DNA of 64,000 nt, taken from NCBI GenBank assembly GCA_017404505.1, contig JAFRCE010000018.1, forward strand, positions 136,639-200,638. Direction: 5' to 3'. The translations under genes and the position numbers were made by a program. The DNA comes from Solobacterium sp. GTDB taxonomy: Bacteria > Bacillota_I > Bacilli_A > Erysipelotrichales > Erysipelotrichaceae. The stretch's first letter is position 1. Every line of letters begins with the position of its first letter. The notes beneath the pieces were generated by a model, which did no database searches, was not told the DNA's origin, and saw nothing but the letters and a program-made list of their open reading frames with translations. Positions 57,344-59,752 of the stretch are shown piece after piece.

Positions 57344-57565
57344 TCAGGATTTCATCTGTTCAAGATATTCCTTTATCTCTTCTTCACTCAGACCGCTGGT
57401 GCGTACGGCTGTGGCCATGTCCACTGTCCCGTTCAGAAGCAGTTTGCAGATCAGTTTCCTTTCACCTTTTTTCTCACCTTCCGCAAGGCCTTCCTTCTTT
57501 CCTTCTGCAAGACCTTCTTCACGTCCCAGCCGGCGCTCATTTCTCAGCCTTTCTTCCATCTTCAT
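57344..57565 (-). CDS. Putative intragenic RpnS-like antitoxin (internal start)
   Basis: An in-frame ATG at 57563-57565 inside the Rpn gene, with AGGAGAGGAG only ~7 nt upstream, would give a 73-residue protein consisting of the C-terminal domain alone. The upstream codons (DPQERRAY) need not create such a site, and its strength exceeds that of many start sites here. In E. coli the small internally initiated Rpn products neutralise the full-length nuclease (reported work on intragenic antitoxins). A second, separate gene for the same domain lies at 58270. Inferred from sequence. Confidence 0.6.
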   Translation of the reverse strand: MKMEERLRNERRLGREEGLAEGKKEGLAEGEKKGERKLICKLLLNGTVDMATAVRTSGLSEEEIKEYLEQMKS

Positions 57566-58177
57566 ATAGGCTCTCCTCTCCTGCGGGTCCATGCGTACTT
57601 CTTCCGCATCCTTCTCCAGTTTCCTGATATATGCGTCAGAGCTTTCATTCTTTCCGTCTCTGATGTAGCACAGCACTTCCGCCAGTCTGTCATTGACATT
57701 ATAATCCCCGGCATTGATGTTCAGATAGATCCACTTCCTGCCGTCACCATCAGACGGCTTCCCTTCCGGTTCCCATCTGACCTCACCTGTGTGCATACAT
57801 ATATTATCATGAAACAGATCTTCACCTATGATGAAAACGACAGTCACATCAGGCAGTTCCTGATAGTCTTCTCCTTTCTTCAGCATTTCCGTATCAACTT
57901 CCGAAGCATAATATCTGCCTCTTCTGAGACTGCCAATACGGTAATTGCAGTTCATTTCGACGATGCATACATCCTCTTCAAATGTCACTTTCAGATCAGT
58001 GCAGATACCATGTGAATCATAGGCTGACTTCATCGCCTTTTCCCTGTCAATGATCAGGGTTTCAATATTCCTTTCCGGAAAAAGCCTGTGCAGGAACTCT
58101 CTGAGATTCTCTTCTCTGCTCATGACTGTCAGAAACATAAAATCATCTTTAATTGTCAGTTCTTCAAATCTTTTCAT
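57344..58177 (-). CDS. Rpn-family PD-(D/E)XK nuclease
   Basis: A 277-residue protein; the start MKRFEELTIKDDFMF has GGAGGT 7 nt upstream. The N-terminal nuclease domain shows the family start (KDDFMFLTVM), FPERNIETL and the catalytic segment GICTDLKVTFEEDVCIVEMN (Asp, then Glu-x-Asn; most relatives have Glu-x-Gln). A variable C-terminal region begins near residue 205 (MKMEERL) and has Gly-rich EGLAEGKKEG repeats before a conserved end (KLICKLLLNGTVDMATAVRTSGLSEEEI). Rpn proteins are toxic, phage-defence DNases that are held in check by a C-terminal-only product made from an internal start. An unusually strong internal start is present here (57565). Confidence 0.85.
   Translation of the reverse strand: MKRFEELTIKDDFMFLTVMSREENLREFLHRLFPERNIETLIIDREKAMKSAYDSHGICTDLKVTFEEDVCIVEMNCNYRIGSLRRGRYYASEVDTEMLKKGEDYQELPDVTVVFIIGEDLFHDNICMHTGEVRWEPEGKPSDGDGRKWIYLNINAGDYNVNDRLAEVLCYIRDGKNESSDAYIRKLEKDAEEVRMDPQERRAYMKMEERLRNERRLGREEGLAEGKKEGLAEGEKKGERKLICKLLLNGTVDMATAVRTSGLSEEEIKEYLEQMKS
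57350..57459 (-). repeat. Direct repeat, copy A (Rpn C-terminal region)
   Basis: About 110 bp at 57350-57459 is ~95% identical to 58294-58403 (five or so mismatches), encoding the last ~35 residues of the Rpn family C-terminus. Similarity continues at lower level to the internal ATG (57565/58545). Confidence 0.8.
57571..57583 (-). promoter_or_regulatory. Strong internal ribosome binding site in the Rpn gene
   Basis: CAGGAGAGGAGAG on the minus strand, 5-7 nt before the internal ATG (57565). It decides the start of the internal product. Confidence 0.65.
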
Positions 58178-58221
58178 CGAACACCTCCAACAGTCATATA
58201 GAGATGTCAGGGTGCATTTCC

Positions 58222-58258
58222 CAAAAAAAGCAGCAATATGATCATTCATACTGCTGCT
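58222..58258 (-). terminator. Intrinsic terminator
   Basis: On the minus strand AGCAGTATGA pairs with TCATATTGCTGCT (one or two bulges), followed by eight T. It ends the stand-alone C-terminal-domain gene and lies just upstream of the Rpn gene. Confidence 0.75.
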
Positions 58259-58269
58259 GTTGCTGTTTA

Positions 58270-58545
58270 TTATGTTCGGACTGTGCCGGATACTTTCATC
58301 TGTTCAAGATATTCCTTTATCTCTTCTTCACTCAGACCGCTGGCGCTTAAGGCTGTGGCCATATCCACTGTTCCGTTCAGAAGCAGTTTGCAGATCAGTT
58401 TCTTTTTGCCTTCTTTCTCCCATTCCGCTAGGCCTTCCTCAAATCCTTCTTCATACCCTTCCGCAAAACTTTCCGCAAAACCTTTTGCAAATCCCTCTTC
58501 GTATCCCAGACGATGTTCGATCCTCAGCCTTTCTTCCATCTTCAT
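58270..58545 (-). CDS. Stand-alone Rpn C-terminal-domain protein
   Basis: A 91-residue protein, MKMEERLRIEHRLGYEEGF..., that corresponds to the C-terminal domain of the Rpn nuclease at 57344 with no nuclease domain. The matching DNA begins exactly at the ATG (CAT at 58543-58545): bases upstream of it are unrelated to the Rpn gene. The linker is longer and Phe/Glu-rich (EGFAKGFAESFAEGYEEGFEEG). It lies 4 bp after the stop of the STAS-kinase gene, so it may be translated by coupling; only a weak GGAAG is seen upstream. It may be a dedicated antitoxin copy or a remnant of a second rpn gene whose 5' part was lost. Confidence 0.65.
   Translation of the reverse strand: MKMEERLRIEHRLGYEEGFAKGFAESFAEGYEEGFEEGLAEWEKEGKKKLICKLLLNGTVDMATALSASGLSEEEIKEYLEQMKVSGTVRT
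58294..58403 (-). repeat. Direct repeat, copy B (Rpn C-terminal region)
   Basis: Partner of the repeat at 57350-57459; within the stand-alone C-terminal-domain gene. Confidence 0.8.
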
Positions 58546-58549
58546 GGCA

Positions 58550-59752
58550 CTATGCTTCCATGTTCATGGCCAGTTCATTTACCTGCGGCAGCAGTTCACG
58601 GATACGTGTCAGAGCCTGTTCCTTGATCCAGCCGGTTTCGGTATCCTTGAAGTATTTGCCGCTGTGCACATAAAGGACAAAGCGCATCCAGGCCATCAGC
58701 TTCACCTGTCTGAGAAGCTGGTCACGGTCCTTGTCATAGCCTTTCAGATAATCGTCGAAGGTTTCCATGAAAAGCCGGTCTGTTTCCGCGTCCGGCAGTT
58801 TGAGGAACTCCTCGCTGTTGCCGGGGAACAGTTCGGCGAAGCAATGATACGCGACATACAGGCCGCTGAATTCAAAGACCGGATCACCCGCACTCAGGAA
58901 TTCCATGTCGATCAGCAATGGCTCTTCCCCTCTGACCATGACATTCTTGATATGGAAATCACCGTGAATCATGCGGAAACATTCGGGAATGCCTTCATAC
59001 AATTCCTTCAGACGTCCGTATTCTTCTTCCGTGAACAGTTCCTTTCCGGAAGCCAGCAGATCGAGCGCCTGGCTGCGGCAGGAAGGAAGATCGCCTTCCT
59101 TCAGTTCGATGCCGTGAATAACATGCAGCAGATCAGCTGACATCTGAGCGATCTCACTGATCGTCTTCTTCTGTCCCAGGATCAGTTTCTGAAAGGAACT
59201 CGCCTCGAGCAGCTCGAAGACGGACCCGTAAAGACCGTGGTCGGTGATGACGATATCATAGGGAATCGCGGTCGGCACACCCAGAATAAAGGCTTTGCGG
59301 GCCAGAGCCTGCTCGTTTTCAATATCCCTGAGGGCGTCCGGATCTTTGAATTCCTTCACGATCGTTTCCCGGTCAATGCGGTAAACGATACCCATGGCGC
59401 CTTCGCCGATGACCTCGCATCCTTCTGTCGAAATATGCCGGAGCGGTCTTCTGACCTCGATCATCTCAGTAAAGCCCGTCGTCTGCAGGATCTCGAAGAT
59501 GGCGGAAGATACATTGATCATCTCCACGTCTTTGATCCGTTTGCGCAGGTACAGGATCACCCGCAGGCCGGAGGAAGAAATGTATTCCAGGTCACGGCAG
59601 TCGATCACAACTCTGTCGCATTCCTCAAGAGCCTCCGCGATCTGCTGCTGGGCAGCCGGTGCCGAATCGGTATCGATCCGGCCGCCAAGCGTGAGCATCA
59701 GAACACGGTCCTGAATTTTGATTTCGATATTTAAGCCTTTCGCAGATGTCAT
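58550..59752 (-). CDS. STAS domain fused to TIGR02172-type phosphotransferase
   Basis: A 400-residue protein. Residues ~1-100 form a STAS domain (DRVLMLTLGGRIDT...VVIDCRDLEYISSSGLRVIL), with the Ser phosphorylation site of anti-sigma-factor antagonists in SSSG. Residues ~110-400 form an aminoglycoside/choline-kinase-like phosphotransferase of the TIGR02172 type, with an N-lobe GEGAMGIVYRI, catalytic MIHGDFHIKNVM (Brenner motif) and LLIDMEFLSAGDP. AAGGAG precedes the ATG. The fusion suggests that a kinase is controlled by a partner-switch; the SpoIIE phosphatase at 19587 is a possible partner. Location cytoplasmic. Substrate unknown. Confidence 0.85.
   Translation of the reverse strand: MTSAKGLNIEIKIQDRVLMLTLGGRIDTDSAPAAQQQIAEALEECDRVVIDCRDLEYISSSGLRVILYLRKRIKDVEMINVSSAIFEILQTTGFTEMIEVRRPLRHISTEGCEVIGEGAMGIVYRIDRETIVKEFKDPDALRDIENEQALARKAFILGVPTAIPYDIVITDHGLYGSVFELLEASSFQKLILGQKKTISEIAQMSADLLHVIHGIELKEGDLPSCRSQALDLLASGKELFTEEEYGRLKELYEGIPECFRMIHGDFHIKNVMVRGEEPLLIDMEFLSAGDPVFEFSGLYVAYHCFAELFPGNSEEFLKLPDAETDRLFMETFDDYLKGYDKDRDQLLRQVKLMAWMRFVLYVHSGKYFKDTETGWIKEQALTRIRELLPQVNELAMNMEA

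Follow-up and report, generated by a model that had tools for sequence, protein, structure and literature searches.

The window analyzed here is a stretch of 64,000 nucleotides from Solobacterium sp. (GenBank assembly GCA_017404505.1, contig JAFRCE010000018.1, positions 136,639 to 200,638), whose host genome amounts to 2.59 Mb in 27 contigs and is about 91% complete. On the minus strand of the window a gene for a predicted nuclease of the Rpn family, here termed rpnL, stands beside a second gene, here termed solo, that encodes only the C-terminal (RpnS) domain of such a protein. The locus is of the ordinary Rpn kind, with a layout known from Escherichia coli; what seems to be new is that, in two phyla, the tail encoded by the stand-alone gene departs in length from that of the neighboring rpn by multiples of four residues in almost all pairs examined. 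The order of elements on the minus strand is a gene combining STAS and APH-type kinase-like domains, solo, a hairpin, rpnL and a gene for a C_GCAxxG_C_C protein, with the following features:

57344..58177, minus strand: rpnL, predicted PD-(D/E)XK Rpn nuclease of 277 residues (open frame, profile matches, structure model)
57344..57565, minus strand: predicted intragenic RpnS of 73 residues, from the ATG at 57565 (sequence reading, start scoring)
57573..57582, minus strand: AGGAGAGGAG, predicted internal ribosome-binding site (-9.1 kcal/mol)
57464..57523, minus strand: four-residue repeat block of the RpnL tail, about 20 residues (alignment; 43 residues from Met to core)
58270..58545, minus strand: solo, RpnS-type gene of 91 residues (open frame, similarity to the rpn tail)
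58408..58503, minus strand: four-residue repeat block of solo, about 32 residues, that is, the RpnL block plus three repeats (55 residues from Met to core)
58229..58258, minus strand: hairpin resembling an intrinsic terminator, 13 pairs plus a T run, between solo and rpnL
58182..58188, minus strand: GGAGGTG, predicted ribosome-binding site of rpnL (read from the sequence)
58550..59752, minus strand: STAS and APH-type kinase-like gene (Pfam), ending just 5' of solo

RpnL exceeds the cut-offs of two family profiles, PDDEXK_2 (44 bits against 27.4) and TIGR01784 (72.7 bits against 52.1), and its Pfam family is PF12784. The structure model (pLDDT 89.1) displays a long helix spanning residues 198-248 and then two short helices, and the first helix of the tail bears four-residue repeats, as in the Rpn family; Foldseek searches with this model returned no match at E <= 0.001. 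Within the gene, AGGAGAGGAG precedes an in-frame ATG at 57565 (codon 205), followed two codons later by a second ATG at 57559. Among the 11 in-frame ATGs scored, that at 57565 has the strongest predicted pairing with the anti-Shine-Dalgarno sequence; together with the open frame at 57344-58177 and its profile matches, this bears out the preliminary description of the DNA, which had proposed an Rpn gene with a strong internal start. Synonymous recodings equal the pairing of -9.1 kcal/mol in 7% of cases; the signal is therefore due in part to the protein sequence, and the strength of the pairing alone is not extraordinary. Of 73 rpn genes surveyed, which come from the order (Erysipelotrichales) and include the copies of the window and a small number of loci from other Bacillota, 72 contain an in-frame ATG within their tail zone. 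Such an ATG has a pairing of -6 or better in 63 of the 72, versus 14 of 72 when the mid-gene zone is scored instead. By this sequence measure, a predicted internal start with a ribosome-binding site before the tail is a clear family trait of rpn genes.

The solo gene matches the rpn tail with an e-value of 4.7e-23 and 79% identity, and in the DNA alignment its similarity to rpnL begins exactly at the internal ATG, with nothing in common upstream, as had been proposed. The earlier view of solo as a separate copy of the C-terminal domain holds for the domain itself, but solo is no plain copy, having three extra four-residue repeats (+12 residues) and 7 residues beyond the end of RpnL; its core helices are nearly identical to those of the RpnL tail. 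The comparison with the rpn tail gives a pN/pS of 0.42, averaged over both lineages, pointing to some constraint on solo, and a 91-residue database protein (P0001) differs from it by a single residue. The preliminary description had allowed that solo might be one of many random remnants; in its own genome, about 91% complete, it is the sole separate tail copy found. The rpn genes found there number three, the second RpnL, on contig 14, being 91% identical and a relative on contig 25 being 36% identical. The structure model of solo is weak (pLDDT 60.7), and Foldseek recovered only weak helix-turn-helix matches with it; PDB 7TH0, which represents the three-helix fold of RpnS, was matched by sequence only at E 0.49. 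DUF4351 (PF14261), the name given to some solo RpnS proteins, was not among the matches listed up to an e-value of 1.

Although the preliminary description took this layout to be undescribed, in E. coli RpnS is already known to be made inside rpn or from separate neighboring genes (Zhong et al. 2023, PMC10327210): ypaA adjoins rpnE and the YpaA protein has been detected, while rpnCS lies beside rpnC in some strains. The same study found that one repeat added to RpnCS abolishes its action on RpnC, that RpnCS is likewise ineffective in the reverse pairing, and that neutralization is restored when both carry the added repeat. It also describes solos lost through deletion or fusion, leaves for further study how Rpn tails acquire and shed repeats, and does not settle the role of separate RpnS genes. 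A systematic comparison of repeat number between solos and their neighbors was not found in the main text of PMC10327210, and our literature search found no other paper that makes it.

The window resembles the pair of RpnE and YpaA (RpnES) in combining an intragenic RpnS with an adjoining solo that begins at the internal start, with unequal repeat numbers. In E. coli, ypaA lies directly downstream of rpnE with the ribosome-binding site copied (14 nt), whereas the window solo lies upstream, after another gene, with a hairpin between, without the ribosome-binding site of rpn and three repeats apart. It likewise resembles RpnC and rpnCS in having a solo RpnS gene beside rpn, but the E. coli rpnCS tail is much diverged from that of RpnC in the two pairs that could be parsed.

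Tail length was taken as the distance from the internal Met, or the equivalent residue, to the shared core, and was compared in 15 pairs from the order, including that of the window. The differences (solo minus rpn, in residues) are +12 (window), -12, -16, +4, +24, +4, -4, -12, +8, -12, -4, -8, -4, 0 and +8; all are multiples of four, and the two lengths are unequal in 14 of the 15 pairs. The loci L151, L159, L036 and L177, ambiguous or degenerate, were excluded from this count beforehand; L060 and L067 probably represent one solo origin, and L188 contributes two solos of one locus. The underlying tail survey covered 92 full-length open reading frames from 86 loci (85 distinct sequences), comprising loci chosen for neighboring tail matches and 80 loci for which a family match was the only criterion; among the latter, 8 including L177 show a neighboring tail match, and given this mixed choice of loci no frequency of solos is claimed. 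As a separate observation, L188 (genome G198) has a short rpn frame of about 165 residues followed by two tandem solos, and the repeat numbers of all three differ.

Beyond the order, rpnE and ypaA are unequal in all 18 solo-bearing E. coli strains fetched, with 9 length combinations; these strains are a non-random set taken from spread listings (60 rows each, out of 5,371 matching records). In K-12, ypaA is one repeat longer than the rpnE tail. Over the first 14 codons plus the core, changes across the 18 strains number 8 synonymous against 4 amino-acid in the solos and 7 against 4 in the rpnE tails, consistent with some constraint on solos. Outside this count stand the rpnC pairs, for which 8 loci were fetched in addition to K-12 and only two were parsed with both tails (39 versus 29 and 47 versus 29 residues, differences that are not multiples of four). 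Thus, the lengths of solo and neighbor are not kept in register. Selection for mismatch as such was considered and set aside, since shuffling the solos among rpnE alleles gave no significant result.

Sequence relationships among the copies also bear on the history of the tails. RUG13885, a metagenome-assembled genome and the nearest named relative found, served as sister genome (it is identical to genome G106 over 3,205 bases), and its two rpn loci lie between the same flanks. Informative sites were compared across both rpn loci of each genome; the sister contigs break inside rpn, and their halves were placed by their own flanks. All 48 such sites in the first four bins, upstream of rpn, agree with orthology; those in the coding region form swapped or concerted patterns, and orthology returns at the gene end. 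Accordingly, the window rpn and the second RpnL (L002; G000 contig 14, 39106-39906), which has a shorter repeat block, have coding sequences exchanged relative to the sister and flanks that are orthologous. The core of the window rpnL, LICKLLLNGTVDMATA, is that of solo and differs from the contig 14 copy and from the two sister copies, one of them partly masked. In the one E. coli strain without a solo that was fetched (L127), rpnE bears a tail end of the solo type, which agrees with the fusion reported in PMC10327210. Such patterns support recombination of tails, for which solo would be one possible donor.

The reading that we tentatively prefer, at somewhat less than even confidence, is that a predicted Rpn nuclease with a predicted intragenic antitoxin is here adjoined by a likely non-cognate spare antitoxin that is also a possible tail donor. 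By analogy with the E. coli Rpn proteins, RpnL would be a self-toxic DNA nuclease acting against phage, and the RpnS started at 57565 would block it, pairing by way of the first helix, where the repeats lie. Because the start codon of solo lies 4 nt past the stop codon of the STAS-kinase gene and the hairpin (fold -20.2 kcal/mol, z -4.3) intervenes before rpnL, solo is most likely made with the upstream STAS-kinase transcription unit and independently of rpnL. Given that a single added repeat abolished the action of RpnCS, solo with its three further repeats is predicted not to silence RpnL. Hence the earlier suggestion that the antitoxin exists both inside the nuclease gene and as its own gene stands at the level of sequence, while restraint of RpnL by solo is doubtful. 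If repeat register sets the choice of partner, solo would be a spare antitoxin directed at an Rpn nuclease whose repeat class is different, either an incoming one or another version of the resident. It could further act as a recombination donor: copying of its tail onto rpnL would alter the toxin together with the intragenic antitoxin in a single event. Orphan type II antitoxins and the orphan immunity or tail modules of polymorphic toxins are spare specificity modules without a toxin of their own; unlike in those, the Rpn antitoxin and the toxin tail share one reading frame, and transfer of a spare tail would switch both.

Several observations weigh against this interpretation. None of the three rpn genes of the genome has the repeat length of solo, the ribosome-binding site of solo looks weak (GGAAG nine bases before the ATG), and the direction of tail exchange is one that we infer. 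The register rule derives from a single repeat insertion, published for a single E. coli protein (PMC10327210), E. coli rpnE falls in PF04754 as against PF12784 for the window RpnL, and RefSeq annotates K-12 rpnE as inactive and ypaA as a pseudogene. One pair of the order (G193, L163) is equal in length. Shuffling would be expected to leave 0.8 equal pairs among the 9 combinations (P 0.42 for none) and 1.6 among the 18 strains (P 0.16 for none); the lack of equal pairs is thus within chance, and selection for mismatch is not established. Solo and rpnE lengths are also weakly and positively correlated (r 0.43 and 0.37, with no significance attached). Finally, RUG13885 has no solo at this locus, with 65 nt in place of 271 nt.

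The strongest competitor, which we nevertheless hold to be rather unlikely, is that solo is a neutral remnant, a functionless tail copy left by duplication or recombination whose repeat number has drifted. That repeat numbers are not kept equal to those of the neighbor is compatible with such drift, and the sister genome lends itself to the same view: the ten bases ATGAAGATGG, 4 nt past the upstream stop, are common to solo and to the solo-less RUG13885, in which a second short stretch may also align to solo (P 0.06), leaning toward a remnant of a lost solo there. The shared ATGAAGATGG may be what is left of a lost solo, or solo may have joined at a microhomology, and the exact boundary of solo may accordingly reflect a remnant or a microhomology junction; a single genome pair cannot polarize gain against loss. 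Several tail copies at other loci look degenerate, namely L036, L159 (two frames) and L037, which has lost the frame after the repeats, and the nuclease frame of L188 is itself short. Against a remnant stand the intact frame of solo, which starts exactly at the RpnS start, its pN/pS, the database protein one residue away, and the detection of YpaA as a protein (PMC10327210). Moreover, tail units of the solo type are found at further loci, bounded close to the internal start. In 9 of the 14 pairs whose boundaries were measured, the similarity upstream of the aligned Met stops within 18 nt, the other five extending 29, 36, 37, 94 and 140 nt (the anchor in L196 is the residue after a Met); in the window pair, read separately from the alignment, it is 0 nt. 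In G134, as in E. coli rpnE, the copy carries the 14 nt with the ribosome-binding site along. Tail copies thus tend, as far as alignments tell, to be putative RpnS translation units, and boundaries near the internal Met fit copies kept as translated units.

A second, cognate antitoxin that adds to the dose of inhibitor against RpnL, as originally read from the sequence, appears distinctly unlikely. The near identity of the core helices, the existence of separate RpnS genes in E. coli (PMC10327210) and the weak positive correlation of solo and rpnE lengths agree with it, but solo has three extra repeats where one abolished neutralization of RpnC (PMC10327210), lengths are unequal in nearly all pairs of the order and in every E. 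coli strain above, and the terminator-like hairpin separates solo from rpnL. That RpnL is not an active nuclease, so that neither short product would be an antitoxin, is highly improbable. D61 and E74 of the active site are kept. What speaks for inactivity is Asn76 at the third position, where 69 of 93 aligned rows (a set that includes overlapping loci) have Gln and 6 have Asn.

Returning to the spare-antitoxin reading, its extension to stand-alone RpnS genes in general, as out-of-register spare tails that confer immunity to non-neighbor Rpn proteins and serve as specificity-switching cassettes, strikes us as unlikely at present, if attractive. If solos are out of register as a rule, they do not simply add to the dose of an existing antitoxin; they would then be candidates for spare immunity or tail-switching cassettes, by means of which a gene-within-gene toxin-antitoxin pair could swap its partner specificity in one recombination event. 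The natural allele pairs allow a direct test.

A role for phage-borne solos in counter-defense was also considered and rejected, no relative of the window solo being present in the viral contigs or phage records searched. YpaA itself matches 8 phage-collection records, of which two are half-megabase Salmonella contigs, and the others include Leptospira phage LE1 and, weakly, Sodalis phage phiSG1. A 73-residue, RpnS-sized protein (P0002), found on 11 contigs of up to 17 kb, has the core of the window RpnL and may be another solo. The surroundings do not qualify as a defense island, PADLOC having returned for the tail no more than a weak match, 'putative invertase' (E 0.012-0.014), and the neighboring genes are presumably housekeeping, judged from their translations and, for two of them, from Pfam. 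Some part of the STAS and APH-type kinase-like gene is matched in 51 of 70 genomes of the genus.
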